From Actinomyces denticolens (lineage in GTDB: Bacteria > Actinomycetota > Actinomycetes > Actinomycetales > Actinomycetaceae): 64,000 nt of DNA. Made by a program: the position numbers and the translations under genes. The notes beneath the pieces were generated by a model that searched no databases, was not told where the DNA came from, and saw only the letters and a program-made list of their open reading frames with translations. The stretch spans positions 62,001 to 126,000 of the forward strand of contig NZ_MVIW01000002.1 of NCBI RefSeq assembly GCF_002072185.1, in the 5' to 3' direction. Shown here one piece after another: positions 14,944 to 47,942 of this stretch; the stretch's first letter is position 1, and every line of letters begins with the position of its first letter.

Positions 14944-14980
14944 GGGATTTCCTTTCACTTCTTTGTGAGGGGGGCGGGTG

Positions 14981-15013
14981 CCGGGGGCGGTCCCGTGAGG
15001 GGGCCGCCCCCGG
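14981..15013 (-). terminator. Intercistronic hairpin between glpF and glpK
   Basis: Positions 14981-14994 and the complementary run ending at 15013 form a 13-14 bp GC stem with a GTGA loop, right after the glpF stop. It may stabilise or partly terminate the upstream message. Confidence 0.4.
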
Positions 15014-15019
15014 TGCGGG

Positions 15020-15784: not shown

Positions 15785-15847
15785 GGGAGATTCACTTTCT
15801 GCACGTCAACGTGCCATGAGGGGTTATCAGGGGGAGGGAGAGGGACA

Positions 15848-15873
15848 TGCGCCCGCTCGGGTGAGCGGGCGCA
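15848..15873 (-). terminator. Intercistronic hairpin between glpD and glpF
   Basis: TGCGCCCGCTC at 15848-15858 pairs perfectly with 15863-15873 around GGGT, starting 9 bases after the glpD stop. It may adjust the glpD to glpFK expression ratio. Confidence 0.45.
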
Positions 15874-15881
15874 CGCGCTGA

Positions 15882-17654
15882 TCAGATGGGCCGGGTGACC
15901 TTGGCGACCGCTTCGGCGTCGGTCGTCTCGGCCTCGGCGGCGGCGATCTGCTCGACCCTCTCGGCGTAGGAGGCTAGCTCGGCAGCGGCGTCCTTGTCAG
16001 ACCAACGGAGGAGCGGGGCCATGATCCCCAGGATCTCCTCGGCGGCGGACAGGCCGCGGTCGCGGTGGGAGACGTCCAGGCGCACGCGGTGCAGCAGGAC
16101 GTCCTCGAGGTGCTCGGCGCCCTCGTGGGTGACGGCCCAGGAGACCTCGGCGCGCAGGTAGGTGGGGGCCCCGGCCAGGGGCTCCCCCAGGCGCTGGGAG
16201 TTCTCGGCCTCGGCGTCGGCGTCGATGAGCTCCAGGATGTCGGCCGTCTCGTCCCCGTAGCGGTCCAGGAGGTGGGTGATGCGCGCCAGCGTCCAGTCGC
16301 GCTCCGCCGCGAGCTGGGCGGCGCGGCCGGCCAGCTCCTCGTAGCCCTCGGCGCCCACGAGCGGCAGGTTCTCGGTGCGGCTGGGGTGGGCGTGGGCGAG
16401 GGCCTCGCCCAGGGCGTGGTCGACGGCGTCGACGCCCATGACGCGGTAGGTGGTCAGCTTGCCGCCGGCGATGGCGGTCAGGCCGGGGGCCACGCGGGTG
16501 ACGGTGTGCTCGCGGGAGACCTTCGTGGAGGCCGCCTTGGCGCCGGGCTTGAGGCGGGGCTGGAGCAGCGGGCGCAGGCCCGCGTAGACGCCGATGATGT
16601 CCTCGCGGCGGATCGGGCGGGTGAGCACGGAGTTCGCGTGCTCGAGGACGTAATCGATGTCAGCGCTGGTGGCCACGGGCTTGGCGACGTCCTCGGCCCA
16701 GGGGGTGTCCGTGGTGCCGATGACCCAGTACTCGGGCCACGGGATGATGAAGAGCACGGACTTCTCGGTGCGCAGGAAGATGCCGGTCTCGGCGTCGATG
16801 GCGGTCTTGGGCACGACGATGTGGATGCCCTTGGACGCCAGCACCTTGAGGCCGCCCTCGGTGGTGGCCATGTCCTGGACCTCCTCGGTCCACACGCCGG
16901 TGGCGTTGATGGTGCGGGTCGCGCGGATCTCGATCTCCTCGCCGGAGGCGAGGTCCGTGGCGGTCACGCCGGTGACGCGGCCCTCGCCGTCCTTGAGGAA
17001 GCCGGTGACGCGGGTGCGGTTGGCGGCGTGGGCCCCCAGGCCGACGGCGGTGCGCACGAGGTCGATGACCAGGCGCGAGTCGTCCACTCGGGCGTCGTAG
17101 AAGCGGATGGCGCCGGCCAGGTGGCTGGTGTCCAGCGCGGGGGCCAGGGCTGCGGTGCCCTTCTTGCCCAGGTGCTTCTGGATGGGCACGGTCCTGTGCC
17201 CGCGGGCGCCGGCGACGGCCAGGGCGTCGTACATGCCCACGCCGACGGCGGAGTAGGTGCGCTCGTAGTGGTGCTTGAGCGGCCACAGGAAGGGCTGGGC
17301 CTTGACGAGGTGGGGCGCGTTGGAGGTCAGGAGGCGGCCGCGCTCGGTGAGGGCCTCGTGGACGAGGGCGAAGTTCGCCTGGTAGAGGTAGCGCAGGCCC
17401 CCGTGGACGAGCTTGGAGGACCACGACGACGTGCCGGAGGCCCAGTCGCCCATCTCGACGATGCCGGTGCGCAGGCCGCGGGAGGCGGCGTCGACGGCGA
17501 TCCCGGCGCCTGTGACGCCGCCTCCGATGACCAGGACGTCGAGGGGCTCGTCGGTGGGGCCGTTCGCGGACAGGGCGGCGAGCGCCTCGGCGCGCTGCTC
17601 CCGGTTGAGGGCTGTGGATCGTAGTGGTGCGGGTGCGGGGGCTGGGCTTGACAT
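15882..17654 (-). CDS. glpD: Aerobic glycerol-3-phosphate dehydrogenase
   Basis: FAD enzyme that oxidises glycerol 3-phosphate to dihydroxyacetone phosphate at the membrane and feeds the quinone pool. The 590-residue protein has the dinucleotide fold LDVLVIGGGVTGAGIAVDAA, the glpD signature GDWASGTSSWSSKLVHGG followed by LRYLYQANFALV, and INATGVWTEEVQDM; a C-terminal DAO_C domain contains DRYGDETADILELI and a VTHEGAEHLEDVLLHRVRL stretch. The ATG at 17654 has GAGGAG eight bases upstream; longer readings run into the promoter and are rejected. It heads glpD-glpF-glpK and is divergent from a SorC-family regulator, with a palindromic operator candidate at 17766-17781. Confidence 0.96.
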   Translation of the reverse strand: MSSPAPAPAPLRSTALNREQRAEALAALSANGPTDEPLDVLVIGGGVTGAGIAVDAASRGLRTGIVEMGDWASGTSSWSSKLVHGGLRYLYQANFALVHEALTERGRLLTSNAPHLVKAQPFLWPLKHHYERTYSAVGVGMYDALAVAGARGHRTVPIQKHLGKKGTAALAPALDTSHLAGAIRFYDARVDDSRLVIDLVRTAVGLGAHAANRTRVTGFLKDGEGRVTGVTATDLASGEEIEIRATRTINATGVWTEEVQDMATTEGGLKVLASKGIHIVVPKTAIDAETGIFLRTEKSVLFIIPWPEYWVIGTTDTPWAEDVAKPVATSADIDYVLEHANSVLTRPIRREDIIGVYAGLRPLLQPRLKPGAKAASTKVSREHTVTRVAPGLTAIAGGKLTTYRVMGVDAVDHALGEALAHAHPSRTENLPLVGAEGYEELAGRAAQLAAERDWTLARITHLLDRYGDETADILELIDADAEAENSQRLGEPLAGAPTYLRAEVSWAVTHEGAEHLEDVLLHRVRLDVSHRDRGLSAAEEILGIMAPLLRWSDKDAAAELASYAERVEQIAAAEAETTDAEAVAKVTRPI

Positions 17655-17765
17655 GGTGGCTCCTCGGTCTCGACGGTGAGCGGCTGCGTCTCGGGCGCGG
17701 CTGTCAGGGCGGCGGTTGTTCCCTGTGACACATCGTCGAGGCTTATGAGAGGATGGGCAAGCAGG

Positions 17766-17781
17766 CTGCACGAACGTGCAG
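17766..17781. promoter_or_regulatory. Operator candidate between glpD and the SorC regulator
   Basis: CTGCACGAACGTGCAG is a perfect palindrome with 7-bp arms around AA. It lies 24 bases before the regulator start and about 110 bases before the glpD start, in the only shared promoter region of the glp operon. It is the best candidate binding site of the divergent regulator. Confidence 0.5.
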
Positions 17782-17805
17782 AACTGGTGTGCGGAGCGGA
17801 GGAAC

Positions 17806-18975
17806 ATGACCACTCGGAGTGACGATTCTCCCCGGAATCCCGGCGGTTCTGGTGAGAATTCCACGCAACTGCGGGCCTATGAGGCGGCGTCGATGTACTA
17901 CGTTCAGGGCGAGACGATGGAGGTGATCGCCCATCATCTGGGGGTGTCGCGCTCGACCGTCTCGCGGCTCCTGGATCGCGCCCGGGCGACGGGCATCGTG
18001 CGCATCGAGCTCACCCAGCCCGGTGGCGCCGGCTCCATCGAGGGGAGATTCGCCTCGCTGTTCGGCGTGCGCGCCCAGATCGTGCCCGTGCGCGAGGGGG
18101 CCACGGAGATCCATCGGCTTCAGCAGGTCGCGGGCGTCGCTGCGGCCCGGATGGTCGAGCTGGCCGCCGAGCTGGCCGAACGGCGAGATGCCGAGGCTCC
18201 GAGCGCCCCGGCCGGCACCGGCGCCGAGGCGGCAGGCGCGGAGGAGCTCGGCGAGGGCGGTGGCGGCGGCAGGGGCGGATCCGCGGGCGCGCCCTCACCG
18301 GGTGGTGCCGAGGGCGCGCTGGGCGCGGGCGGCCGGGGCGTCGTCGTCGGCGTCGCCTGGGGGACCACCATGTCCGAGGTGAGCGCGGCCCTGCCGGCGC
18401 GGCAGGTTCCGGGGGTGACTGTGGTCCAGCTCAACGGCGCCACGGACCCGATGGAGATGGGGCCCAGCGCCGGCGAGGTGCTCTCGCGGGTCGGCCACGC
18501 GTTGGGCGCGCGCGTGGTGGCCTTCCCCGTCCCCGCCTTCTTCGATCACGTGGCTACCCGCGAGGCGATGTGGTCCGAGCGCTCCGTGCGCCGGGTGCTG
18601 GCGCTGGCGCGCAGCGCTGACCTGGCGGTCTTCGGCGTCGGGTCGGTGGTCCAGGGCGTCCTGCCCTCGCAGGTCTACGAGGGCGGGCATGTCAGCCGCG
18701 CCGACCGCGTGGCGCTGCGCCGGGAGCGGGTGGTGGGCGACGTGTGCACCGTGCTGCTGCGCGCTGACGGCTCGTGGAGCGATATCGCCCTCAATGCGCG
18801 GGCGACCGGCCCCACACCCGCCCAGCTCGCGCGCATCCCGAGGCGCCTGTGCGTGGTGGCCGGGCGGGCGAAGGCCCCCGCCCTGCTGGCGGCGCTGCGG
18901 GCACGGGTGGCCACGGACCTCGTCGTCGACGACGCGACCGCCCGTGCCGTCCTCGATCTGGCCTCCGCCTCATAA
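17806..18975 (+). CDS. SorC-family sugar-binding transcriptional regulator, divergent from glpD
   Basis: Predicted regulator of glpDFK, probably responding to a phosphorylated triose or glycerol 3-phosphate. The N-terminal helix-turn-helix reads AYEAASMYYVQGETMEVIAHH and SRSTVSRLLDRARATG, followed by the SorC sugar-binding domain with GVAWGTTMSEV, VQLNGATDP, a VFGVGSV stretch and RVVGDVCTVLL. Between the two runs a Gly/Ala/Glu-rich insertion of about 55 residues (roughly 132-187) that I do not expect in the family; codon use there stays normal. The ATG at 17806 follows GGAGGAAC. At 389 residues it is about 70 longer than usual. GlpR of other bacteria is DeoR-type, so a SorC member here is a different solution or has another target. 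Confidence 0.85.
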   Translation: MTTRSDDSPRNPGGSGENSTQLRAYEAASMYYVQGETMEVIAHHLGVSRSTVSRLLDRARATGIVRIELTQPGGAGSIEGRFASLFGVRAQIVPVREGATEIHRLQQVAGVAAARMVELAAELAERRDAEAPSAPAGTGAEAAGAEELGEGGGGGRGGSAGAPSPGGAEGALGAGGRGVVVGVAWGTTMSEVSAALPARQVPGVTVVQLNGATDPMEMGPSAGEVLSRVGHALGARVVAFPVPAFFDHVATREAMWSERSVRRVLALARSADLAVFGVGSVVQGVLPSQVYEGGHVSRADRVALRRERVVGDVCTVLLRADGSWSDIALNARATGPTPAQLARIPRRLCVVAGRAKAPALLAALRARVATDLVVDDATARAVLDLASAS

Positions 18976-19084: not shown

Positions 19085-21172
19085 TCAGGGGCGGGGCGCC
19101 AGGGCCCGGGCGGCCACCTCGGCGACGTGCTCGCCGGTGAAGCCGTACTCCTCGAACAGGCGCGGTCCTGGCGCTGAGGCTCCGTAGTGGTCGAGGGACA
19201 CGATCGCCCCCGAGTCGCCCACGATCTCGCGCCAGCCCATCGCGATGCCGGCCTCCACGGAGACCCGCACGGCACCGGCGGGCAGCACCGAGGCGCGGTA
19301 AGCCTCGTCCTGCTCGGCGAACCACTCCAGGCACGGTGCGGAGACGACGCGGGTCGGGGTGCCCGCGGCGCCCAGGCGCTCGCGCGCGTCCATAGCCACA
19401 CCCACCTCGGAGCCGGTGGCGATGATGACGACGGCGGGGTCGACCGTCGCCCCGGAGGCGTCAACGGCGTCGGCCAGCACGTAGGCCCCCCGGCGCACCC
19501 CCTCGGCGGCGGCCTCGGGGGTCGCGTGGACCGTCAGGTTCTGGCGCGACAGGACGATGCCCGCCGGCTCGCGGCGACGGCGCAGGATCTCCGCCCAGGC
19601 GGCCGCGGTCTCGTTGGCGTCGGCGGGCCGCACGACGGCGAATCCCGGGATCGCGCGCAGGGCCGCCAGATGCTCGATGGGCTGATGGGTGGGGCCGTCC
19701 TCGCCGACGCCGATGGAGTCGTGGGTCCAGACGAACACCGAGCCGATCCCCATGAGCGCCGCCAGGCGCACGGCCGGGCGCATGTAGTCGGAGAACACCA
19801 TGAAGGTGCCGCCGTAGGGGCGGGTGAGCCCGGCGAGGGCGATGCCGTTGAGGATCGAGCCCATCGCGTGCTCGCGCACGCCGAAGTGGATGGTGCGTCC
19901 GTAGGGGCCGTCGGCCGCGCCAACCGCCAGGGAGGACGGCAGGAAGGAGGGCTCGCCGGCCATCGTCGTGTTGTTCGATCCGGCCAGGTCCGCCGAGCCC
20001 CCCCACAGCTCGGGCACCACGGGCGCCAGGGCGGTCAGGGTCTTGCCGGAGGCGGATCGGGTGGCGACGGCGTCCCCGAGCGCCCAGTGGGGCAGGGCGG
20101 CCTCCAGCCCCTCGGGAAGCCGACCGGCGCGCAGGCGCTCCAGCAGCGCGGAGCCCTCGGGGGCGGCCGTCCGCCAGGCGGCGAAGCGGGCGTCCCAGTC
20201 GGCGCGCAGGGCGGCAGCGCGCTCGGCGGCCCGGGCGCGGGTGTGCTCCAGGACTTCGGCCGGCACCTGGAAGTCAGCCTCCGGGTCGAGCCCGAGGGCG
20301 CGCTTGAGGCCGGCGACCTCCTCGGCCCCGAGCTTGGCGCCGTGCGAGGACTCGTCGCCCTGCTTGGTGGGCGAGGGCCAGGCGATGATCGTGTGCAACC
20401 GGATGAGCGTGGGCCGGGCGGTCTCGGCGCGAGCCGCCTCGAGGGCGGCGTGAAGCGCGTCGTAGTCCTCGCGGTACTGCCCGCCGGCCTTCCAGTCGAC
20501 GTCGATCACCTGCCAGCCGTAGGCGGCGAAGCGGGCGGAGGGGTCCTCGGTGAAGGCGATGTCCGTGTCGCCCTCGATGGAGATGTCATTGTCGTCGTAG
20601 ATGGCGATGAGGTTGCCGAGCTGCTGGGTTCCCGCCAGGGAGGCGGCCTCGGAGGCCACGCCCTCCTGGAGGCACCCGTCGCCCACGATCGTGTAGACGT
20701 AGTGGTCGAAGACGGACTCGCCGGCGGGGGAGGCGGCGTCGAAGAGCCCGTGCTCCCTGCGCGCGGACATGGCCATGCCCACGGCGTTGGCGATGCCCGC
20801 GCCCAGCGGCCCGGTGGTGGTCTCGATGCCGGCGGTGTGCCCGAACTCGGGGTGGCCGGGGGTGAGCGATCCCCAGGTGCGCAGGGCGGCGATGTCGCTG
20901 ATCTCCAGGCCGTAGCCGGCCAGGGCGAGCTGGATGTACTGGAGCAGTGAGGCGTGCCCGATGGACAGCACGAAGCGATCGCGGCCCAGCCAGGCGGGGT
21001 CTGCGGGGTCGCAGGCCATTTCCTTCTGATAGAGCAGGTAGGCGACGCCGGCCAGGGAGATGGGGGTCCCGGGGTGGCCGGATCCGGCCTTCTCGACGGC
21101 GTCGGCCGCCAGTGCCTTCGAGGCGGCGATGGCCTTGAGATCGAGGTCGGTCAACAGCGCGGGCGTGGTCAT
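19085..21172 (-). CDS. tkt: Transketolase
   Basis: Thiamine-diphosphate enzyme that transfers two-carbon ketol units between pentose, tetrose and triose phosphates in the non-oxidative pentose phosphate pathway. The 695-residue protein is full length: KAGSGHPGTPISLA near residue 30-45, the ThDP motif VGDGCLQEGVASEA, the Mg-binding IYDDNDISIEG, the pyrimidine domain with ARSASGKTL replaced here by VATRSASGKT, FGVREHAMGSILNGI, THDSIGVGEDGPTHQPIEHL and a C-terminal domain. The ATG at 21172 has AGGAGGAACGC upstream. It is divergent from the RpiB-like gene at 21514, and the shared region carries two copies of a palindromic motif, so it may be co-regulated with the pentose/polyol cluster rather than be the only housekeeping copy. 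Confidence 0.96.
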   Translation of the reverse strand: MTTPALLTDLDLKAIAASKALAADAVEKAGSGHPGTPISLAGVAYLLYQKEMACDPADPAWLGRDRFVLSIGHASLLQYIQLALAGYGLEISDIAALRTWGSLTPGHPEFGHTAGIETTTGPLGAGIANAVGMAMSARREHGLFDAASPAGESVFDHYVYTIVGDGCLQEGVASEAASLAGTQQLGNLIAIYDDNDISIEGDTDIAFTEDPSARFAAYGWQVIDVDWKAGGQYREDYDALHAALEAARAETARPTLIRLHTIIAWPSPTKQGDESSHGAKLGAEEVAGLKRALGLDPEADFQVPAEVLEHTRARAAERAAALRADWDARFAAWRTAAPEGSALLERLRAGRLPEGLEAALPHWALGDAVATRSASGKTLTALAPVVPELWGGSADLAGSNNTTMAGEPSFLPSSLAVGAADGPYGRTIHFGVREHAMGSILNGIALAGLTRPYGGTFMVFSDYMRPAVRLAALMGIGSVFVWTHDSIGVGEDGPTHQPIEHLAALRAIPGFAVVRPADANETAAAWAEILRRRREPAGIVLSRQNLTVHATPEAAAEGVRRGAYVLADAVDASGATVDPAVVIIATGSEVGVAMDARERLGAAGTPTRVVSAPCLEWFAEQDEAYRASVLPAGAVRVSVEAGIAMGWREIVGDSGAIVSLDHYGASAPGPRLFEEYGFTGEHVAEVAARALAPRP

Positions 21173-21271
21173 GCGTTCCTCCTAGGACGGCGGTCCCTGG
21201 GCTGGGCTGGTGCGGTTGTCGATTCACACACTAACGAAGCACGCCGATGCGCCGGGCGCCAGTACCGCAAC

Positions 21272-21283
21272 GCTCATATGTGC
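21272..21283. promoter_or_regulatory. Operator candidate O1 in the tkt / rpiB-like divergent region
   Basis: GCTCATATGTGC, inside CGCTCATATGTGCG, is a near-palindrome. It matches the second copy at 21373-21388. The 341-base gap 21173-21513 holds both motifs and otherwise no gene or strong hairpin. Confidence 0.45.
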
Positions 21284-21372
21284 GCAGGACCGGCGGAGTG
21301 CCGGGACGCAGGCGGTGTGGGGCGCCTCACGATACCACCGGCCCCGGCGCAGCGGCAGGGGCCCTGCGGAAA

Positions 21373-21388
21373 TTGCTCATGTGTGCAA
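21373..21388. promoter_or_regulatory. Operator candidate O2 in the tkt / rpiB-like divergent region
   Basis: TTGCTCATGTGTGCAA has TTGC/GCAA arms and a CATGTG centre, and shares GCTCATnTGTGC with O1 about 100 bases away. Two sites at this distance suit a tetrameric SorC-type regulator such as the one encoded at 28952-29896. Confidence 0.5.
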
Positions 21389-21513
21389 CCGATTGTCGAA
21401 TTCGGCGCCATTCAGGACCATGAGAAGCGCATATCAACCACCGCATCATCCGCCTCTCCCCGGGGCGTCAACAGCTCCGGACGGAATGGTGCGGGCGAGC
21501 GAGGAGGCCGCAT

Positions 21514-21972
21514 ATGGGATACAGAATCGTCATCGCCTGCGATGATGCTGCCGTCGAGTACAAGGATGTGCTGGCTCGGGATCTCGGGAGCGATCCGCGC
21601 GTCGATGAGGTGATCGACGCCGGCGTGTCGAAAGGGGAATGCATTGATTACCCCCACGTCGCCGTGAGGGCCGCCCGTATGATCTCCGACGGCGACGCCG
21701 ATCGCGGCCTCTTCCTCTGCGGTACCGGCATGGGCATGGCGATCAGTGCCAACAAGGTCCCCGGTATTCGCGCCTCCGTCGCCCACGACTCCTTCTCGGT
21801 GGAGCGCCTCATCAAGTCCAATAACGCCCAGGTCCTCACCCTCGGCCAGCGCGTCATCGGCATTGAGCTCGCCCGAAGGCTCGTCAGCGAATGGCTCGGC
21901 CACGACTTCGACCCCTCCTCGCCGTCGGCCCGCAAGGTGGCCGCCCTGGAGTCGTACGAGACCGGCTCCTGA
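21514..21972 (+). CDS. RpiB/LacAB-family sugar-phosphate isomerase
   Basis: Aldose-ketose isomerisation of a sugar phosphate; relatives act on ribose 5-phosphate, allose 6-phosphate, galactose 6-phosphate or tetrose 4-phosphates. The 152-residue protein fits the family: [14 protein letters not shown] at the N-terminus, the glycine loop [16 protein letters not shown] with the catalytic Cys, and [25 protein letters not shown]. The second-residue region DDAAVEYK differs from the usual CDHAG of RpiB proper, pointing to a specialised substrate. The ATG at 21514 follows GAGGAGG. It starts a + strand cluster with two FGGY kinases, AraL- and AraM-like proteins and its own regulator. A tetrose-phosphate isomerase of the EryI/DerI type is a fair alternative. 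Confidence 0.85.
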
Positions 21973-22062
21973 GCCCCGCCCCAAGCCCATCGCCCCAACC
22001 CCCCTCGCCCGCGCGCCCGGGTGAGGAGCTCCCTGACCACCGCAGCACTTCAAGGACGAAGA

Positions 22063-23028
22063 ATGACACCCGATACAACAATCCCCCTGCTGGAGAACCT
22101 GGACTTATTCTGGCTCCTGGCCGCCTGCGTCGGAGGCATCATCGGCGGCATCGTAGGAGCGAACAACGCCTTCGGATTCACCGGCGTCATGATCCTGACC
22201 GGTTTCGGGATCGCCGCCTCGACGGGCAGTACCTTCTTCTTCGACTATGTCGCCTTCGGCCCCGTCTTCGGCCCGCATATCGCCTTCGCCGGAGCCGCCG
22301 CCGGATCCGCCTACTCGGCGAAGAAGAAGTTGCTCGACACCGGACGGGATATCGATACCCCGCTGGGCAGCCTCAAGGATCCGACGGTCCTATGGGTGGC
22401 CGCAGGATTCGGCGTTGCGGGTTTGATCGTGCAGCGCCTCATCGCCCTCATCCCCTGGTTCGGGACCCACACCGACTCCGTGGCCCTGACGGTCTTCCTG
22501 TCCGGCTGCGCCTCCCGGCTCGTCTTCGGATCCACCGGCGTTGTCCACGCCCCGACCCCGCCACAGGGATCGCATCGCTGGCTCGATCACCAGGAGACGC
22601 CGGGGCAGCTCGGCACCGTCGCCCTCGGCGCAGCCGTCATGGCCTCCGGCGGCGCGATCGTGCTGACCTCCTACGCCCGGGCCCACCTGCCCGAGGACGC
22701 GGCAGCCGCGGTGGCGGGCAATGCCCACACCCTGCCCTTCGCCATCTCGGCCCTCTGCATCTTCCTACTGGTGGCAGGGCAGAGGGTCAATGTCACCCAC
22801 CACATCACCATCATCGCGGGCCTGGCCGGCGCGCAGTTCTGGCTCGCCACCGGCAACGGATGGGCGGCCCTGGCCATCGGCACCGTCTTCGGCGTCCTGT
22901 CGGGCTTCGTCGCCGAGTTCATCATCGCTCGCCTCACCTACTACCACGGCGACACGCACATCGACCCGCCGGCCGGGACGATCTGGATCATGACCACCCT
23001 CATCCACCTGACCCTGCTCGCCGTTTGA
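22063..23028 (+). CDS. Unrecognised multi-spanning membrane protein, candidate sugar/polyol carrier
   Basis: I do not recognise this family. The 321-residue protein is mostly hydrophobic, with about 9-10 likely membrane segments, starting at LFWLLAACVGGIIGGIVG followed by GANNAFGFTGVMIL, then GPVFGPHIAFAGAAAG, and ending in GTIWIMTTLIHLTLLAV. There is no signal peptide, ATP-binding site or known transporter signature. Charged or polar pieces lie in loops, for example SAKKKLLDTGRDIDTPLG and HAPTPPQGSHRWLDHQETPG. The ATG at 22063 follows AAGGACG. It is the only membrane protein of the seven-gene cluster and sits second, where a transporter would be expected, so a carrier for the cluster's substrate is the simplest inference. 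An enzyme or accessory membrane protein cannot be excluded. Confidence 0.75.
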   Translation: MTPDTTIPLLENLDLFWLLAACVGGIIGGIVGANNAFGFTGVMILTGFGIAASTGSTFFFDYVAFGPVFGPHIAFAGAAAGSAYSAKKKLLDTGRDIDTPLGSLKDPTVLWVAAGFGVAGLIVQRLIALIPWFGTHTDSVALTVFLSGCASRLVFGSTGVVHAPTPPQGSHRWLDHQETPGQLGTVALGAAVMASGGAIVLTSYARAHLPEDAAAAVAGNAHTLPFAISALCIFLLVAGQRVNVTHHITIIAGLAGAQFWLATGNGWAALAIGTVFGVLSGFVAEFIIARLTYYHGDTHIDPPAGTIWIMTTLIHLTLLAV

Positions 23029-23100
23029 CCCCTCCGCCCCGACCGGGCGTTCCCGGGGCAATCCCGCCCGGAACGCCCCCATGACCCCCAGGAAGCACTC

Positions 23101-23994
23101 ATGAGCGACCCGCGTCCTCCCAGCACCGCTCCGTCCGCCGTCCACGACTGGCCCACCGAGCTCTACGACGCCTACGTCTTCGACATGGACGGCACCATCT
23201 ACCTCGGTGATCACCTCCTGCCGGGCGCCAAGCGCCTCATCACCGAGCTGCGCCGCCGGGCCATCCCCGTGCGCTTCCTGTCCAACAATCCCACCAAGGA
23301 CCCCGACCAGTACGCCGAGAAGCTCGCCCGCCTCGGTCTGCCGACGCCGGTGGGCGAGATCGCCAACACGGTGGTCACCACCGTGCGCTGGCTGATGACC
23401 CACCACCCCGGTGCCACCGTCTTCGCCATCGCCGAGGATCCGCTCAAGCGCGCGCTGGCCCGGGCCGGCATCGCGCAGAGCGAGGTTCCCGAGGAGATCG
23501 ACATCGTCGTCGCCTCCTACGACCGCGCCTTCGACTACCGCAAGCTCCAGATCGCCTTCGACGCCATCTGGTTCCACAAGAGGGCCTTCCTCATCGCCAC
23601 CAACCCCGACCGCTTCTGCCCCTTCCCCGGTGGGCGCGGCCAGCCCGACTGCGCCGCCGTCATCGCCGCTATCGAGGCCTGCACCGGCACCACCTGCCGC
23701 ACCGTCATCGGCAAGCCCAACGCCTCGATGCTCCAGGCCGCCATCGGTGACCTAGACCTGCGCCCCGAGCGCTGCATGATGGTCGGCGATCGGCTCGGCA
23801 CCGATATCCAGATGGCGGTGCGCACCGGCATGCGCTCCGCGATGCCTCTCACCGGTGAGTCCACCCTCGCCGACGCCCGGGCCCTTAACAGCGCCGACCG
23901 ACCCACCTACGTCCTCGACCGCATCGACCGGCTCATCCCCGCCGCCGGCTGGGAGGAACTCGGTTGGAGCGAGGAGGCCGACCCCGTCCCCTGA
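23101..23994 (+). CDS. HAD-IIA sugar-phosphatase (AraL/NagD-like)
   Basis: Phosphatase of the HAD superfamily, subclass IIA. B. subtilis AraL, its best-known relative in an ara operon, removes phosphate from several sugar phosphates and is thought to prevent their toxic build-up. The 297-residue protein has motif I YVFDMDGTIYLGD (nucleophile Asp and acid Asp), motif II VRFLSNNPTKDP, the C2 cap, ATNPDRFCPF, the catalytic Lys in IGKPNASML, and motif IV MMVGDRLGTDIQMA. All key residues are present. The ATG at 23101 follows AGGAAGC. It lies between the membrane protein and the FGGY kinase, as AraL lies beside AraM in Bacillus. The substrate is unknown. Confidence 0.88.
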   Translation: MSDPRPPSTAPSAVHDWPTELYDAYVFDMDGTIYLGDHLLPGAKRLITELRRRAIPVRFLSNNPTKDPDQYAEKLARLGLPTPVGEIANTVVTTVRWLMTHHPGATVFAIAEDPLKRALARAGIAQSEVPEEIDIVVASYDRAFDYRKLQIAFDAIWFHKRAFLIATNPDRFCPFPGGRGQPDCAAVIAAIEACTGTTCRTVIGKPNASMLQAAIGDLDLRPERCMMVGDRLGTDIQMAVRTGMRSAMPLTGESTLADARALNSADRPTYVLDRIDRLIPAAGWEELGWSEEADPVP

Positions 23995-24078
23995 ACCGCC
24001 CCGACCCGCCCGACGCCGCTCACGCGGCGGCACCGCTGCCACGACATGAAGAGACGACACGAAGAACGGAGACCAACG

Positions 24079-25641
24079 ATGGTCAGTCCTGGATACGAAG
24101 GCCCCTACCTGCTCGGCATCGATTTCGGAACGGAGTCCTGCCGCGCGGCGATCTTCGACCTCGCCGGTCACCCGATCGCCTTCACCGCCGCCCCCTACCC
24201 CACAGCCCACCCCCGCCCGGGCCGAGCGGAGCAGAGCCCCGGGGACTGGTGGGACGCCCTCAGGGCCGCCGTCTACCGAGTCCTCAACGAGACGGGCATC
24301 CCCGGCCGTCACATCGCCGGCATCTCCTATGACGCCACCACGATGACCGTCGTCGCCATGGACGCCAATGGCCAGGAGCTGCGCCCGGCGATCATGTGGA
24401 TGGACGTGCGCGCCTCCGAGCAGGCCTCTCGCGCCGAGACGATCGACCACTGGGCCCGTCTTTACAACGGCGGCGGCACCATGGGGGCGACCGCCGAGTG
24501 GTACCCCTTCAAGGCCGCCTGGCTCAAGGAGAATGAGCCCGAGATCTACAGGGCCGCTCACCGGCTCGTCGACGCCCCCGAGTGGCTCACCCACAGGCTC
24601 ACCGGCGAGTGGACCCTCAACATCAACTCTGCGGCCCTGCGCATGTACTACAACCGCGACAAGGGCGGTTGGCCGGTCGAGTTCTACGAGCACATCGGCT
24701 GCGGCGACGTCTTCGACAAGATCCCCGAGCGCGTCCTCGACCTCGGCATGCCCGTCGGCGGGTTGACCGCCGCCGCCGCCGGCGACCTCGGCCTGCTGCC
24801 CGGTACGCCAGTCGCCCAGGGCTGCGCGGACGCATGGGCGGGGCAGATCGGCCTGGGCGTCGTCGAACCCGGCAAGACCGCCATCATCACCGGATCCTCC
24901 CATGTCATCACCGGCCAGTCGCCCAGTCCCCTGCATGGCAGCGGCTTCTTCGGCGCCTACACCGACGGCGTCCTGCCAGGCCAGTACACATGCGAGGGCG
25001 GCCTGGTCTCCTCGGGGTCCGTGCTCAAGTGGTTCAAGGACAACTTCGCCGCCGACGTCGCCGCCGCCGCGGAGCGCCTGGGCTACAACCCCTACAAGAT
25101 CCTCGACGAGCGCAGCGCCCATGTGCCGGTCGGCTCCAACGGCCTCATCATCAACGAGTACTTCCAGGGCAACCGCACCCCGTACACCGACTCCAAGGCG
25201 CGCGGCATCGTATGGGGCCTCACCTTGGGCACCACGCCCGAGGAGTTCTACCGGGCGATCCAGGAGGCCGTCTGCTACGGAACCGCTCACGTGCTGCAGG
25301 CGTTCAAGGACGCAGGCTTCGCCACCACCGAGCTCGTCGCCTGCGGCGGCGCCACCAAGTCCCGCGACTGGATGCAGATGCACGCCGATGTCACCGGTGT
25401 TCCCGTCACCCTCACCGAGGTGGGCGACGCCGTCGTCCTGGGCTCGTGCGTGCTCGCGGCCGTCGGCGCCGGGCAGTACCCCTCCATCCAGGACGCCGTC
25501 CGAAACATGGTGCGCGAGACCGACCGCATCGAGCCGCGTCCCGATGTCCACGAGGAGTACCGGTTCTACCTCGAGAAGTACATGGAGACCTACCCGCGCC
25601 TGCGGGATCTCTCCCACGGGATGGTCGACCACCTCGTCTGA
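24079..25641 (+). CDS. FGGY-family carbohydrate kinase (pentulose-kinase type)
   Basis: ATP-dependent phosphorylation of a ketose or polyol. The 520-residue protein has the FGGY N-terminal motif YLLGIDFGTESCRAAIFDL, GISYDATTMTVVAMD, an IMWMDVRASEQA substrate loop, DAWAGQIGLGVVEPGK, and the C-terminal ATP site ELVACGGATKSRDWMQMHAD. The GTESCR and MWMDVR forms resemble ribulokinase-like and D-ribulose/L-xylulose kinases more than GlpK or XylB. The start at 24079 has GGAG eight bases upstream; an ATG at 24046 is possible but has no ribosome-binding site. The cluster contains a second, AraB-like kinase, so two different substrates, or two phosphorylations, are implied. Which sugar it uses cannot be told. 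Confidence 0.88.
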   Translation: MVSPGYEGPYLLGIDFGTESCRAAIFDLAGHPIAFTAAPYPTAHPRPGRAEQSPGDWWDALRAAVYRVLNETGIPGRHIAGISYDATTMTVVAMDANGQELRPAIMWMDVRASEQASRAETIDHWARLYNGGGTMGATAEWYPFKAAWLKENEPEIYRAAHRLVDAPEWLTHRLTGEWTLNINSAALRMYYNRDKGGWPVEFYEHIGCGDVFDKIPERVLDLGMPVGGLTAAAAGDLGLLPGTPVAQGCADAWAGQIGLGVVEPGKTAIITGSSHVITGQSPSPLHGSGFFGAYTDGVLPGQYTCEGGLVSSGSVLKWFKDNFAADVAAAAERLGYNPYKILDERSAHVPVGSNGLIINEYFQGNRTPYTDSKARGIVWGLTLGTTPEEFYRAIQEAVCYGTAHVLQAFKDAGFATTELVACGGATKSRDWMQMHADVTGVPVTLTEVGDAVVLGSCVLAAVGAGQYPSIQDAVRNMVRETDRIEPRPDVHEEYRFYLEKYMETYPRLRDLSHGMVDHLV

Positions 25642-25673
25642 CACGTCCGAATCCAAGGAAGGAAGCACGATCC

Positions 25674-27062
25674 ATGACACGGTCCTCGGACACCGACCTC
25701 ATCACCCGGGCCCTGGCCACCGCGACCGATACCAGGCGGATAGCCTTCGGCGACGACGTCCTGAGCGCCACGGGCCCCCTCTTCGCCGATCTCTTCCCCG
25801 GCAAGCGGGTCATCATCGTCGCCGATGGGAACACCTTCGCCGCGGCGGGCCGGCCCGTGATGGACTCGCTGGCGGCCGCGGGGGTGGAGGCCATCGAGCC
25901 CTATATCTTCCCGGGCGCCCCCACCCTTTACGCCGACTACGAGAACGTCGAGATCCTGCGCGAGCGCATCAGGCCCCTGACGGACGCCATCGTGTGCTCC
26001 ATCGCCTCGGGCACGCTCAACGACATCGCCAAGCTCGCCTCCGGGGAGCTCTCCCGCCCCTATATGAACGTGTGCACCGCCGCCTCCGTGGACGGCTACG
26101 CCTCCTTCGGGGCCTCGATCTCCAAGGACGGCTTCAAGATCACCCGCAGTTGCCCTGCCCCTGCCGGTCTCGTGGCGGACCTCGGCATCATCGCCGCCGC
26201 CCCCGGGCGACTGACCGCCACCGGATACGGCGACCTCATCGAGAAGGTCCCCGCCGGGGCCGACTGGGTGCTCGCCGACGAGCTCGGCATCGAGCCCATC
26301 GACGACGACGTGTGGGACCTGATCCAGGGCCCGCTGCGCGACGCCCTGGCCGACCCCGGGCGCATCGGCGCGGGAGACCCCGGGGCCATCAGAGGGCTGG
26401 CCGAGGGCAACATCATGTCCGGCCTGGCCATGCAGGCGGCACAGTCCTCCCGCCCCGCCTCCGGAGCGGGGCATCAGTTCTCCCACGTGTGGGAGATGGA
26501 GGGCCACGGCCTGGACTGGGAGCCGCCCCTGTCTCACGGCATGAAGGTCGGTATCGGCACCATCGCCTCCTGCGCCATGTGGGAGGAGATCCTGAGCCGC
26601 GGCCCCGGTTTCGTGGAGGCGATCGACGTCGACGACGTCGTCGCGCGCGCGCGCTCCGACGAGGAGGTCGAGGCCGCCGTGCGCCGGGCTCTCATCCCGC
26701 GCATCGCGCAGGAGGCGGTGGGGCACGCCGTGGGCAAGAACCTCACCGGCGATGCCCTGCGCGAGCGCATCACCGCCATCAAGAGGGCCTGGCCGCGCAT
26801 CGTCGAGCGGGTTCGCCCCCTGCTCATGAGCCCGCAGGAGGTGGCCGACCGCCTCAAGGCCGTGGGCGCGCCCCATCACCCCGAGATGATCGGGATCGAT
26901 ATGGGGCGCTTCAGGGCGACCCACGCCAAGGCCCAGATGATCCGGCCCCGCTACACCATCCTCGATGTCCTGACCGACCTCGGGCTGCTCGACGACGTCG
27001 TCGACGCCCTCTTCTCCCCGCGGGGCTACTGGGGGCGCCATCCCCACGAGGAGCGGGGCTGA
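25674..27062 (+). CDS. AraM-type sn-glycerol-1-phosphate dehydrogenase
   Basis: Family members interconvert dihydroxyacetone phosphate and sn-glycerol 1-phosphate with NAD(P)H; B. subtilis AraM, encoded in the arabinose operon, does this. The 462-residue protein belongs to the iron-containing/glycerol dehydrogenase fold: KRVIIVADGNTFAAAG near residue 44, the pyrophosphate-binding SIASGTLNDIAKLAS (GTLNDIAK at 113-120), DGYASFGASI, and metal ligands expected in GAGHQFSHVWEMEGHG and PPLSHGMKVGIG. The ATG at 25674 follows AAGGAAGGAAG. A C-terminal region of about 100 residues with IGIDMGRFRATHAKAQMIRP completes it. In this cluster it may instead reduce or oxidise another phosphorylated polyol made by the kinases. 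Confidence 0.88.
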   Translation: MTRSSDTDLITRALATATDTRRIAFGDDVLSATGPLFADLFPGKRVIIVADGNTFAAAGRPVMDSLAAAGVEAIEPYIFPGAPTLYADYENVEILRERIRPLTDAIVCSIASGTLNDIAKLASGELSRPYMNVCTAASVDGYASFGASISKDGFKITRSCPAPAGLVADLGIIAAAPGRLTATGYGDLIEKVPAGADWVLADELGIEPIDDDVWDLIQGPLRDALADPGRIGAGDPGAIRGLAEGNIMSGLAMQAAQSSRPASGAGHQFSHVWEMEGHGLDWEPPLSHGMKVGIGTIASCAMWEEILSRGPGFVEAIDVDDVVARARSDEEVEAAVRRALIPRIAQEAVGHAVGKNLTGDALRERITAIKRAWPRIVERVRPLLMSPQEVADRLKAVGAPHHPEMIGIDMGRFRATHAKAQMIRPRYTILDVLTDLGLLDDVVDALFSPRGYWGRHPHEERG

Positions 27063-27146
27063 CCGCCGACCAGGACCCGGCCGGACCCCGGGCGCCCCTG
27101 GCCCCTGATCGACCACCCACCGCGCGACCCTGAATGCGAAGGAGCG

Positions 27147-28877
27147 ATGAGCACCATGACAACCACCCGAGTGCCCTCCAGGGAGGGGACATGCACCCTG
27201 GGTCTCGACTTCGGCACGCTATCCGTGCGCGCCGTCGTCACCCGCGTATCCGACGGCGAGATCCTCGCCGATGCCGTGAGCGAGTACGCCACCCCGATCA
27301 TGGACCGGCGCCTGACCGCCGGTGACAACCGCGAGCTGCCCCCGGAGTTCGCCCTCCAGGTGCCCGGCGACTACCTGGAGTCCATGTGCGCCGCCAGCGC
27401 CGCCGCCGTGCGCGCCTCCAGGGTGAGTGGCTCCGATATCATCGGCGTGGGACTCGATGTCACCTCCGCCACCGTCGTCGTCACCGACTCCGACGGCGTG
27501 CCCATGTGCGACAAGCCCGAGTTCGCCAACAACCCCCACGCCTACGTCAAGCTGTGGAAGCACCACGGGGCGCAGGGCCAGGCCGACCGCATCGTCGAGC
27601 TCGCCAGGAAGCGCGGCGAGGCATGGCTGCCCCGTTACGGCGGCATCCTGTCCGCCGAGATGCTCCTGCCCAAGGCGCTGGAGACCCTCGAGAAGGCCCC
27701 TGACGTCTACGCCGCTGCGGGAGAGATCGTCGACATGCTCGACTGGCTCACATGGCGCCTGACCGGCACTCTGGCCTACTCGGCCTCCGATTCCGGCTAC
27801 AAGCGCATGCTCCAGGACGGCGTCTACCCCTCCGAGGAGTTCCTCGGCGCCCTCAATCCCGACTTCGCCGACGTTTACGCCACGCGAATGAACCACCCGA
27901 TCGCCCCACTCGGATCGGCTGTGGGAGGCCTGACCGCGGAGTACGCCCAGGCCTTCGGGCTGCGCGAGGGCACCCCTGTGGCCGCGGGCAACATCGACGC
28001 CCATGTCCACGCCGCCTCGGTCAACGCGGTTCGCCCCGGTCAGCTCACCGGGATCCTCGGTACCTCGACCTGCTGGGTCCTGCCCGCCGAGGAGTGCGTG
28101 GAGGTGCCGGGCGTCTTCGGCGTCGTCGACGGCGGCATCTCCGAGGGCACATGGGGCTACGAGGCCGGTCAGAGCGCGGTGGGCGACTCCTTCGCCTGGT
28201 TCATCGAGAACAACGTGCCGCGCTCCTACTTCATCGAGGCCGAGTCCGAGGGCGTCTCGATCTTCGCGCTCCTGGCCCGCCTGGCCGCTGAGCAGGAGAT
28301 CGGCGAGCACGGCCTGGTGGCCCTCGACTGGTGGAACGGGAACCGGTCCCCACTGGTCGACTCCCAGCTGACCGGTCTCATGATCGGCCAGACGCTCGTG
28401 ACCCGCCCCGAGGATCAGTACCGCGCGCTCCTGGAGTCCACCGCCTTCGGCGCTCGTGTCATCATCGAGAATTTCGAGTCCCACGGCGTGCCCGTCACCG
28501 AGGTGCGAGTTGCCGGGGGACTCATCAAGGACGGGTTCCTCATGCAGATGTACGCGGATATCACCCGGCGACGTCTGCTGACCGCATCCACCATCCAGGC
28601 CGGGGCCCACGGCTCCTCGATCTTCGCGGCCGTCGCCGCCGGCGCCCACCCGGACCTGCCCACTGCGGCGACCGCGATGGGCGGCGTATCCGAGCGGGTG
28701 TATGAGCCCGACGAGAGCGCGGCGGTTCAATACGATCGCCTTTACGAGATCTACCGCCATCTCCATGGGCTCTTCGGGCGCGGGGACGAGACGATGCACG
28801 CCCTCAAGGCTCTGCGGGCCGACGCCCTCCGGCGCCGGGCGGAGGAGCCGACGCCGAGCGAGGTCGACCGGGACTGA
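27147..28877 (+). CDS. AraB-like ribulokinase
   Basis: Predicted ATP-dependent kinase for a pentulose such as L-ribulose. The 576-residue length and the insertion pattern match AraB rather than XylB. Motifs: CTLGLDFGTLSVRAVVTRV at the N-terminus, the GVGLDVTSATVVVTDSDG strand, KPEFANNPHAYVKLWKHHGA (AraB-type substrate loop), AGNIDAHVHAASVNAV, GTSTCWVLPAEE, DWWNGNRSPLVD, and the ATP motif VRVAGGLIKDGFLMQMYADI. An AAGGAG sits only 2 bases before the first ATG and 11 before the ATG at 27156, so the start may be the latter. No AraA or AraD is encoded in the cluster, so the expected L-arabinose route is incomplete here. It is followed 74 bases later by the SorC regulator. Confidence 0.9.
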   Translation: MSTMTTTRVPSREGTCTLGLDFGTLSVRAVVTRVSDGEILADAVSEYATPIMDRRLTAGDNRELPPEFALQVPGDYLESMCAASAAAVRASRVSGSDIIGVGLDVTSATVVVTDSDGVPMCDKPEFANNPHAYVKLWKHHGAQGQADRIVELARKRGEAWLPRYGGILSAEMLLPKALETLEKAPDVYAAAGEIVDMLDWLTWRLTGTLAYSASDSGYKRMLQDGVYPSEEFLGALNPDFADVYATRMNHPIAPLGSAVGGLTAEYAQAFGLREGTPVAAGNIDAHVHAASVNAVRPGQLTGILGTSTCWVLPAEECVEVPGVFGVVDGGISEGTWGYEAGQSAVGDSFAWFIENNVPRSYFIEAESEGVSIFALLARLAAEQEIGEHGLVALDWWNGNRSPLVDSQLTGLMIGQTLVTRPEDQYRALLESTAFGARVIIENFESHGVPVTEVRVAGGLIKDGFLMQMYADITRRRLLTASTIQAGAHGSSIFAAVAAGAHPDLPTAATAMGGVSERVYEPDESAAVQYDRLYEIYRHLHGLFGRGDETMHALKALRADALRRRAEEPTPSEVDRD

Positions 28878-28951
28878 GCGATACTCATGGCGCTGCGCGG
28901 CGCCTGGTGGGACCGGGACCGCGTAGCGCCCGGCGCCGGGGGAGGATGATG

Positions 28952-29896
28952 ATGAGCGACGCCGAGCGCGAGGCCCTCATGCTGCGGGCCGCCGAGCTCT
29001 ACTACTACGAGCGCCTCACGCAGGCGGCCATCGCCGACCGCCTCATGTGCTCGCGATGGACCGTCGGGCGCCTGCTGGAGGAGGCCCGGGACTGCGGGAT
29101 GATCACCATCTCGATCGTCCACCCCCACGCGCGCGACCGCCCCTTGGAGAACCGGCTGCGCGATGCCTTCGCCGTGTCCGATGCCATCGTCGTCACCTGC
29201 GCGGAGGAGTCGGGAACCGCCCGCCGCGTCGTCGCCTCCGCGACGAGCGACTACCTCACCGGGCTGCGCCCGCGCCCGGCGACCCTCGGCGTGTCCTGGG
29301 GGCGCACTGTCGCGGCGGTCGCCCAGGCCATGCCCGACCGCTGGACGAGCGGGCTCAAGGTCTACCAGGCCTTCGGCGGGCTCATCCGCTCCGATGACGA
29401 TGACGACGTCATCGGGCGATCGATCAGCCTCATCGCGCGCAAGGGGCAGGGAGTCGGGCGCCTCCTGCCCGCCCCGGCCTTCGTGCGCGACGTTGAGCTG
29501 GCCCAGCGCCTGCGCCAGGAGCCGAGCATCGCCCGCACGCTCCGCGATGCCGCTGGCGCCGACACCATCCTCTACTCGCCCGGGGCGATCCGCGACGATT
29601 CCATTCTCGTGCGCTCGGGATACCTCAAGAAGGGGGTGATGGAGCGACTGCGCGCCAAGGGGGCGGTGGCCGACTTCTTCTCCCACTTCGTCGACTCTAA
29701 CGGCGTGCCCGTCATCCCCGAAGTGGAGGACCGCGTGATCTCCATCGGCCTGGAGGCGCTCGCCGGGCCGGGTAGGCGGATCATGGCGGGCTACGGGCCG
29801 GACAAGGCGCTGCCGATGCGAGTTGCCCTCGCCGCCGGCTTCGCCACCGCCGTCGTCACCGATTCGCGCACGGCCTCTGCGATCCTGTTGCGCTGA
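28952..29896 (+). CDS. SorC-family transcriptional regulator of the 21.5-28.9 kb cluster
   Basis: Predicted sugar-phosphate-responsive regulator. The 314-residue protein has an N-terminal helix-turn-helix, LRAAELYYYERLTQAAIADR and SRWTVGRLLEEARDCG, followed by the sugar-binding domain with TLGVSWGRTVAAV, KVYQAFGG, ADTILYSPGAIRDD and GVPVIPEVEDRVISIGLEAL. Three consecutive ATG codons follow GGAGG; the third, at 28952, has the best spacing of 6 bases. It is the last gene of the cluster and its likely targets are the two motifs in the tkt/rpiB-like divergent region. The helix-turn-helix has MCSRWTVGRL in place of the more usual SRPTVSRL, so its operator may differ from those of the other two SorC members here. 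Confidence 0.87.
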   Translation: MSDAEREALMLRAAELYYYERLTQAAIADRLMCSRWTVGRLLEEARDCGMITISIVHPHARDRPLENRLRDAFAVSDAIVVTCAEESGTARRVVASATSDYLTGLRPRPATLGVSWGRTVAAVAQAMPDRWTSGLKVYQAFGGLIRSDDDDDVIGRSISLIARKGQGVGRLLPAPAFVRDVELAQRLRQEPSIARTLRDAAGADTILYSPGAIRDDSILVRSGYLKKGVMERLRAKGAVADFFSHFVDSNGVPVIPEVEDRVISIGLEALAGPGRRIMAGYGPDKALPMRVALAAGFATAVVTDSRTASAILLR

Positions 29897-29969
29897 GCCG
29901 GCCGGAGGCGGCAGCCGCGCGCCCCTCGGCTCAGGGGCGAGGGGTGCGCGAACTGCGGGCCATCAGGTC

Positions 29970-30428
29970 TCAGGGGGTCGCCAGGCTGTGCGAGGCGTTG
30001 TTCTGGTAAAGGTCGAGGAGCAACTGGGCCTCCCCGCCCGCGATGACCTGGGTCCGGCCACCGTAATACGAGTTCTCGTAAACAGTGAGTGTCCTCCCTG
30101 ACCTGTTCCAGACGTACTTGGCGTTGTTCTTCAGGCACTCACCGGCGCCAGTATCGCTGCCCTTGAACTCATAGCACGACGGCTGGGATGCCCCATAGTT
30201 CGGCACGTCGCTGCCGGCGTCGAAGTCGGACACGGCCCCGTCGAACCAGACTCCAGGCATCCCGTGAGTGTTGAATGTATCGTGGTAGAAGCAGACCTCC
30301 CCCTCATCGCAGACTCCGTCGCGCGCGGTGCCGGCCTGAGCCGCGGGCGTGGCGAGAGCGGAGATGCCGAAGGCGAGGGTGGCGATGGAGAGCGCCCCGG
30401 TGAGGCGGCGCTTGGGGGTGATGCTCAT
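29970..30428 (-). CDS. Secreted peptidase-inhibitor-like protein (family I36 type)
   Basis: Small exported protein. A signal peptide is clear: KRRLTGALSIATLAFGISA then ALATPAAQAGTA, with cleavage expected after AQA near residue 32. The mature part of about 120 residues has four Cys (VCDEGEVCFYHD, PSCYEF, GECLKNN) and a repeated Tyr/Gly-rich pattern, with RTLTVYENSYYGGRTQVIAGG resembling the gamma-crystallin-like fold of I36 inhibitors such as the Streptomyces metalloproteinase inhibitor. Length fits that family. It is alone, divergent from the acetyltransferase gene. The target peptidase is unknown; another secreted beta-rich domain is possible. The start at 30428 is supported by the signal peptide. 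Confidence 0.7.
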   Translation of the reverse strand: MSITPKRRLTGALSIATLAFGISALATPAAQAGTARDGVCDEGEVCFYHDTFNTHGMPGVWFDGAVSDFDAGSDVPNYGASQPSCYEFKGSDTGAGECLKNNAKYVWNRSGRTLTVYENSYYGGRTQVIAGGEAQLLLDLYQNNASHSLATP

Positions 30429-42513: not shown

Positions 42514-42611
42514 CTGTTCCTCCTCGACTCATCAGGGGTGCGAGCGGGCGGCATTTCCGAGGCCCGTGCTGCGATTCTAGGAACCGCCGGTCGGAGAGTG
42601 CATCGGAGGTT

Positions 42612-42627
42612 GTGAACTTATGTTCAC
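42612..42627. promoter_or_regulatory. Operator candidate of the ula-like cluster
   Basis: GTGAACTTATGTTCAC is a perfect palindrome with 6-bp arms around TTAT in the divergent region between the SorC regulator and the PTE-family gene. GGTTCA half-sites recur before that gene (near 42660) and twice before the MFS gene (46498-46522), so both transcription units may share control. Confidence 0.55.
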
Positions 42628-42714
42628 CGCCCTGATTCGGTCCCCACTGGTCGACTCCTAGGTTCATTCATGCCGGCCGCGCATCGGGCGCGGTCCGTTC
42701 GAAGGAGAACCCGC

Positions 42715-43707: not shown

Positions 43708-43722
43708 ACGGGGGAGAGGATC

Positions 43723-45338: not shown

Positions 45339-45483
45339 TCCTCCGGGCCAACCGGCCCGGTACCACTCCACCAGTCCCTGCCCGCACGCGGCCAGCGCCG
45401 CACGACCCCACCACTCGCACGATCCGTACCACCGCACCACTCGGGCCGGACCCGGCCCAGCCCGGAGAACGAAGGAGTTCGCC

Positions 45484-47927: not shown

Positions 47928-47942
47928 CCCCTCCGCTCTTCG

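Follow-up and report, generated by a model that had tools for sequence, protein, structure and literature searches.

What might Actinomyces denticolens break down with a putative operon that combines two sugar kinases, an RpiB-type isomerase, a phosphatase, a distant relative of glycerol-1-phosphate dehydrogenase (G1PDH), a regulator, and a membrane protein of an unclassified family (here named MEM)? The operon lies in a 64,000-nucleotide stretch of contig NZ_MVIW01000002.1 (assembly GCF_002072185.1, positions 62,001 to 126,000 of the forward strand; hereafter, the window). We propose, with a probability of about one half, that it encodes the breakdown of a small sugar alcohol by a route in which a kinase acts first, with erythritol or another tetritol as the likeliest substrate. 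The novelty would lie in a polyol pathway of this kind that employs another dehydrogenase family together with a membrane protein of an unclassified family; the cluster itself is real and conserved, and a literature search of open-licence papers turned up no description of it. The genes are as follows:

19085–21172, minus strand: transketolase, divergent (PF00456, 427 bits)
21514–21972, plus strand: RpiB/LacA/LacB-family isomerase (PF02502, 143 bits)
22063–23028, plus strand: MEM, a 321-residue membrane protein of an unclassified family (alternative GTG start at 22021)
23101–23994, plus strand: HAD-IIA phosphatase, AraL/PGP-like (TIGR01460, 106.2 bits; cut-off 100.15)
24079–25641, plus strand: FGGY kinase 1, FGGY1 (PF00370 and PF02782; alternative ATG at 24046)
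25674–27062, plus strand: long G1PDH-like dehydrogenase of 462 residues (PF13685, 101.6 bits)
27147–28877, plus strand: AraB-like ribulokinase (TIGR01234, 620.8 bits, cut-off 583.25; PRK04123, 652.5 bits, cut-off 428)
28946–29896, plus strand: SorC-family regulator (PF04198, 153 bits; alternative GTG at 28907)

A preliminary description of this DNA had placed seven same-strand genes at 21514–29896 next to a divergent transketolase, and its coordinates are borne out. The intergenic gaps across the seven genes are 90, 72, 84, 32, 84, and 68 bases. The phosphatase has PGP_euk as its best model, at 149.6 bits and below the cut-off of 201.95.

Relatives of MEM are present in 327 of 367 pattern-matched stretches of the GTDB collection, and the best 80 were taken as loci (designated by L numbers; G numbers designate genomes). 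Neighborhoods were counted in the 78 loci with a called MEM gene; L166 and L170, in which no MEM gene was called, were left out. Genes were called with a codon-usage script followed by greedy selection, a procedure that misses genes, so that the counts are lower bounds, and neighbors were labeled by their best phmmer match to the window's proteins and to two proteins from L084, at score thresholds set by us. The long dehydrogenase lies within 9 kb of MEM in 47 of the 78 loci, and MEM, the HAD phosphatase, FGGY1, and the dehydrogenase occur together in 41. These 41 core loci include RpiB in 37 cases, AraB in 29, transketolase in 16, and AraD in 14; AraD without AraB occurs in no locus at the thresholds used, with weaker AraD-like genes without AraB in L029, L039, and L168. 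In a set of 149 related genomes, 20 carry MEM, and the long dehydrogenase is found in 19 of the 20 carriers and in 2 of the 129 others (Fisher tests ignore phylogeny). A dehydrogenase match was counted if it was strong, that is, of the long form with at least 43% identity; seven of 28 genomes, with weak matches only, were not counted, and G312 and G369 were scored positive despite matches in pieces. The recurring core is RpiB, MEM, the HAD phosphatase, the FGGY kinase, the long G1PDH-like dehydrogenase, and sometimes transketolase; AraB and AraD are optional and look like an addition, because the core loci include many without them. The check proposed in the preliminary description, a gene-neighborhood search for co-occurrence, thus finds the set recurring across many genera, beyond chance. 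Gene order, including transketolase, matches in Actinomyces gaoshouyii, A. timonensis, G327, and G326, and named Cutibacterium, Acidipropionibacterium, and Propionibacterium records also hold the cluster. At L214 (10454–12058, in the 2,495,001-base genome G520), FGGY1 was called as two pieces, either because the gene is truly broken there or through an error in sequencing.

In the pathway that we propose, MEM would admit the polyol, FGGY1 would phosphorylate it, and the long G1PDH-like enzyme would oxidize the polyol phosphate to a tetrulose phosphate, as the settings of its paralogues suggest. RpiB, together with a second TIM in some genomes, would then produce D-erythrose 4-phosphate, and transketolase would feed this product into the pentose phosphate pathway. 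At a guess, the HAD protein might clear a wrongly phosphorylated or side product such as 4-phosphoerythronate, which mammalian PGP and yeast Pho13 remove, and the SorC regulator may act at a paired motif between tkt and rpiB. Gene families, gene order, co-occurrence, and RpiB scores are read from the sequence; from them we infer substrate, direction, stereochemistry, and uptake. The general outline given in the preliminary description, in which two kinases serve the breakdown of a polyol or ketose and the products enter through transketolase, gains support, and tetroses, one of the substrate classes that it named, are now favored.

Subfamily scores of RpiB point in part to the predicted isomerase step. 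On the erythrulose-4-phosphate isomerase model NF051858 (cut-off 240), the window's RpiB scores 145.6 bits and the genome's other RpiB 62.9; other cluster RpiBs score 137.4, 141.4, and 153.3, and further non-cluster RpiBs of cluster-bearing genomes 60.0, 69.8, 111.6, and 104.8. The general RpiB model PRK05571 reverses the order, with cluster RpiBs at 134–140 bits and other RpiBs at 179–193. The corresponding alignment (A4) comprises 17 of 40 RpiBs plus that of L213. Each of the 15 cluster genomes examined carries two or more RpiB genes. A role of the cluster RpiB as the sole ribose-5-phosphate isomerase was rejected, since another RpiB lies elsewhere in 15 of 15 genomes. TIM varies across the 15 genomes searched: the window's genome has one, and G489, G437, G377, and G439 have at least two. 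In Propionibacterium australiense (L222, 4943–8711), the second TIM adjoins an RpiB that scores 128.8 bits on NF051858, about 18 kb from the main cluster, and the genes near this pair read like PdxA and DUF1537 acid-sugar enzymes.

The dehydrogenase had been called an AraM-type glycerol-1-phosphate dehydrogenase, and of this only a distant relationship stands: its score on NF002022 is 164.5 bits, far under the cut-off of 413 for a G1PDH equivalog, a difference from the B. subtilis operon as well. Residues D187, H267, and H288, which we take to be the metal ligands, are invariant in 48 of 48 dehydrogenase sequences. The position beside the metal histidine is Gly266 in 42 of the 48; it is Glu in the four solved G1PDH sequences that match best (a set with two nearly identical entries) and in six of the dehydrogenases (L119, L122, L128, L137, L146, and L154). 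Two other settings contain paralogues, which are 43–45% identical (53% in L210). In Propionibacteriaceae loci L201–L204, the paralogue follows glucitol-type phosphotransferase system (PTS) genes and is the only recognizable catabolic enzyme (the PTS call is based on a Pfam check in L203, on reading in L201 and L202, and on gene lengths in L204); a PRD regulator accompanies the PTS genes there, as in a PTS polyol pathway. In L205, L206, L207, L209, and L210, the paralogue is paired with an FGGY kinase. Every setting makes a polyol phosphate nearby, and we therefore read the long family as probable polyol-phosphate dehydrogenases. In the P. australiense family, 87 of 197 genomes show some match to it, and most of these matches are strong.

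Homology to G1PDH also raises the idea that the operon makes glycerol 1-phosphate for lipids or another polymer. PcrB is a known bacterial user of glycerol 1-phosphate, and in Bacillus AraM feeds PcrB, a precedent for such a role. None of the 15 cluster genomes searched has PcrB (PF01884); as a control, the search was positive in 7 of 14 genomes, 5 of them over the cut-off, and the seven positives include B. subtilis and archaea. The absence of PcrB from all 15 counts against a lipid role, which we rejected, and also against glycerol 1-phosphate, an end product suggested in the preliminary description. The two kinases and the SorC or DeoR regulators further suggest catabolism, and synthesis for lipids or another polymer is very improbable.

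The stereochemistry of known erythritol pathways offers a further argument for erythritol. The Propionibacterium kinase reportedly makes D-erythritol 4-phosphate, in which the configuration next to the phosphate is that of sn-glycerol 1-phosphate, so that oxidation of the G1PDH type would give L-erythrulose 1-phosphate. A 1968 study by Wawszkiewicz of erythritol metabolism in Propionibacterium pentosaceum is said, by its title, to concern this very compound; the likeness lies in a related organism group that has the cluster and in L-erythrulose 1-phosphate as the predicted product. The EryA product in Brucella is reportedly, again from a title, L-erythritol 4-phosphate, which matches sn-glycerol 3-phosphate, and the Brucella dehydrogenase is correspondingly of the GlpD type. 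Tentatively, and with less than even confidence, we suggest that the operon is a mirror image of the Brucella pathway, in which the kinase acts on the opposite end of erythritol to make D-erythritol 4-phosphate and a dehydrogenase drawn from the sn-glycerol-1-phosphate rather than the sn-glycerol-3-phosphate family makes L-erythrulose 1-phosphate, with none of the racemization required in Brucella, that MEM founds a new small-polyol transport family, and that these are the missing propionibacterial erythritol genes.

Gene content allows a comparison as well. COG2390 is the SorC type. The Brucella erythritol locus comprises an FGGY kinase, a COG0578 dehydrogenase, TIM, RpiB, and regulators of the DeoR and COG2390 types (PMC3522698). 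The Brucella and rhizobial eryABCD locus and the operon share an FGGY kinase, a phosphopolyol dehydrogenase, RpiB, and a SorC- or DeoR-type regulator; a PF13685 G1PDH-like enzyme replaces the GlpD-type (COG0578) EryB, and the HAD protein and MEM are added. The second TIM is shared by the Brucella locus and the P. freudenreichii cluster but not by the window's cluster. A further comparison is with Mycolicibacterium smegmatis, whose DerI is of the RpiB type. Its tetritol pathways comprise EltD, LerK, LerI, and DerI (PMC10733421), and erythrulose phosphates are isomerized there to erythrose 4-phosphate by DerI, as we propose here; oxidation precedes phosphorylation in those pathways, whereas we propose a kinase followed by a phosphopolyol dehydrogenase. 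DhaK-like and zinc alcohol dehydrogenase genes are present in some relatives of the cluster (L027, L029, L144, and L150).

A phenotype is on record for one probable carrier. Genome G489 appears to be P. freudenreichii DSM 20271, and its cluster comprises DeoR, RpiB, MEM, HAD, FGGY1, the dehydrogenase, AraB, and transketolase, with a second TIM adjoining DeoR and the ordinary TIM elsewhere. Strain DSM 20271 uses erythritol, adonitol, and glycerol (PMC4619572), and 21 of 21 P. freudenreichii strains use erythritol and adonitol, with neither pathway reconstructable in 2015 and both supposed to be wholly unlike the known ones (PMC4437456).

Several observations weigh against a tetritol pathway. 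All four cluster RpiBs miss the NF051858 cut-off of 240; three of them pass that of the ribose-5-phosphate isomerase model TIGR02133 (169.6, 174.2, and 183.7 bits; cut-off 168.2), and the window's RpiB, at 167.8, is 0.4 bits short. FGGY1 reaches no NCBIfam cut-off; its closest models are those of ribulokinases and xylulokinases, with a best ribulokinase score of 279 for a cut-off of 428, and no erythritol kinase model is among its NCBIfam matches. The window's genome contains a single TIM, which leaves the conversion of L-erythrulose 1-phosphate there without an assigned enzyme. In the window's genome (G000; next PF00456 match 173 bits), G330, G343, G489, and G438, no full-length transketolase exists besides the one at the cluster, and its place may thus reflect housekeeping use. 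Aldolase cleavage of L-erythrulose 1-phosphate was suggested in P. pentosaceum (PMC10733421), and the window's cluster showed no aldolase of this kind. Our search found no erythritol phenotype for Actinomyces species, and the use of ribitol by P. freudenreichii means that its phenotype cannot separate a tetritol from a pentitol.

Some of these points would fit a pentitol pathway, in which FGGY1 and AraB phosphorylate ribitol, L-arabinitol, or derived pentuloses, the dehydrogenase oxidizes the pentitol phosphate, and entry is as pentulose 5-phosphates. The pentulose-kinase models nearest to FGGY1, the cluster RpiBs at or near the TIGR02133 cut-off, AraB in 29 of 41 core loci, the adonitol use recorded for P. 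freudenreichii, and an RbtT/DalT-type transporter with a polyol dehydrogenase family protein at 1173–4107 all agree with it. It is nonetheless rather unlikely: an RpiB of its own, of the erythrulose-isomerase-like subfamily, should be needless to such a pathway when the cluster genomes have another RpiB, and 12 of the 41 core loci have no called AraB.

The tetritol pathway also has to be set against the arabinose operon to which the preliminary description had likened the cluster. The Bacillus subtilis ara operon is araABDLMNPQ, and the two have in common AraB, an AraL-like HAD protein, and an AraM-like protein together, with AraD in relatives of the cluster; the cluster differs in having neither AraA nor an ABC transporter and in having RpiB and a second kinase added. 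AraA is missing, as had been stated, and this holds genome-wide (no PF02610 match anywhere in the window's genome). It is present in 1 of 20 MEM carriers and in 63 of 129 non-carriers of the 149 related genomes (Fisher p = 1.4e-4, kinship ignored). AraD, also described as missing, is absent from the operon but is present in the window, on the other strand:

48113–48865, minus strand: AraD, L-ribulose-5-phosphate 4-epimerase, outside the cluster (PRK06557, 363 bits; cut-off 251)

In other genera of the family, AraD stands beside AraB within the cluster (7 of 20 loci). Finding both enzymes, AraA and AraD, next to the cluster in close relatives would have contradicted the preliminary description; one half of this holds, for AraD in those other genera, and AraA occurs in 1 of 20 MEM carriers. 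The kinase that it called AraB-like does pass both ribulokinase cut-offs. Its picture of an ara operon stripped of AraA and AraD gives way to one in which AraB and AraD are the optional part and the other five genes the core. An ara operon remnant was ruled out, with AraA depleted among MEM carriers and the core independent of AraB and AraD. Catabolism of L-ribulose, with AraL- and AraM-like accessories as in Bacillus and with L-ribulose uptake or pentitol oxidation replacing AraA, would account for the ribulokinase scores, for AraD in the window, and for AraD beside AraB in relatives. Against it stand the other five genes found without AraB or AraD, the AraA depletion, and G326, where the cluster and AraB occur but even the best AraD match (E 1.3e-15) is not close, and we give it little credence. 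AraB and AraD more plausibly form a separable arm for L-ribulose or a similar pentulose.

MEM, an unrecognized membrane protein in the preliminary description, matches nothing in Pfam or NCBIfam at E ≤ 0.001, in keeping with that label, but it belongs to a large family, as the 327 stretches attest. It has about eight to ten hydrophobic stretches. In an alignment of 69 sequences (A2, which took in 68 of 76 listed homologues), G66, G70-P71, D138, W173, H246-H247, and D301-A304 are invariant. The family is mostly actinobacterial, with named Vibrio, Thioclava, and Alkalibacterium records as well; A. gaoshouyii and A. timonensis are the nearest named matches among those listed, a list from which very near genomes may have been left off. 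The 31 loci without the long dehydrogenase have MEM near GlpK-like (17), GlpD-like (14), or DhaK-like (4) genes, or with no labeled partner (8). On one Rhodococcus plasmid, the one examined of four found, the MEM gene lies between alcohol dehydrogenase and acyl-CoA genes. The idea that MEM marks tetritol loci only was dropped, because MEM also stands beside DhaK, DhaL, GlpK, and GlpD genes and beside these alcohol and acyl-CoA genes. The simplest common factor of its contexts would be the passage of small polyols. In Mycolicibacterium komossense (L133, 774–15735), MEM has as neighbors a RuBisCO-like protein, a second TIM, a GlpD-like enzyme, two GlpK-like kinases, a class II aldolase, and a short G1PDH-like enzyme; L117 and L127 have a similar appearance, and such loci perhaps serve another tetritol or acid-sugar pathway. 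Plasmids of Rubrobacter radiotolerans (L232) and R. indicoceani (L233) carry clusters of transketolase, several FGGY kinases, a DhaK-family kinase, HAD, one or two G1PDH genes, rpiB, and GlpD-type genes, and the hypothetical protein at 4810–5766 of L232 is MEM.

These contexts bear on a pathway for enantiomeric glycerol, in which FGGY1 makes sn-glycerol 1-phosphate and the dehydrogenase oxidizes it to dihydroxyacetone phosphate. MEM beside GlpK-like and GlpD-like genes in those 31 loci, the homology of the dehydrogenase to G1PDH, and the glpD-glpF-glpK-like genes adjoining the cluster here and in close relatives would suit such a pathway. It leaves RpiB, transketolase, and a transaldolase-like gene (in L027, read by eye) with no role, however; cells already have an ordinary glycerol set, and paralogues of the dehydrogenase stand with a glucitol-type PTS. 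We consider it improbable.

Regulation may involve a sequence pair in the tkt–rpiB intergenic region:

21272–21283, no strand assigned: operator-like site GCTCATATGTGC, candidate, kept in close relatives
21375–21386, no strand assigned: operator-like site GCTCATGTGTGC, candidate, kept in close relatives

The motif GCTCATRTGTGC has exactly two copies in the 64 kb, both between tkt and rpiB; with at most one mismatch, there are 4 sites for 0.61 expected, and 1 of 100 shuffles had as many. A. gaoshouyii, A. timonensis, and G327 retain both copies, and G326 retains one. The pair may be an operator for the SorC regulator. A palindromic form of the motif has 5 sites for 2.11 expected, with as many in 8 of 100 shuffles, and is not clearly beyond chance. 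A scan of 21100–30100 likewise gave nothing beyond chance (promoter-like sites, 0 for 0.7 expected; terminator-like sites, 1 for 1.3 expected).

Other sugar loci lie in the same window. To the left of tkt, 13417–18975 holds glpK-, glpF-, and glpD-like genes (named by reading) and a divergent second SorC-family regulator (by profile match), a neighborhood kept in A. gaoshouyii and A. timonensis. At 1173–5289 are a mannitol-dehydrogenase-family enzyme, the RbtT/DalT-type transporter (384.7 bits; cut-off 375), and a DeoR-like regulator, likely a pentitol locus, which could supply ketopentoses to AraB or XylB. A second sugar cluster at 41539–53059 comprises SorC, phosphotriesterase-like, UlaD-like, UlaE-like, PfkB, MFS, AraD (minus strand), XylB-like, DhaK, and DhaL genes (DhaK and AraD named by models, the rest by reading translations), and a similar set adjoins the main cluster in L118.

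The cluster provides concrete candidate genes for the erythritol fermentation of cheese bacteria, for which genes had not previously been found. Should the stereochemical argument prove right, mirror-image versions of one pathway would have recruited their dehydrogenases from two unrelated families. The widespread long G1PDH-like family gains a likely role, polyol-phosphate oxidation, and the MEM family, for which Pfam and NCBIfam gave no match, emerges as a companion of glycerol, dihydroxyacetone, and tetritol-type genes.

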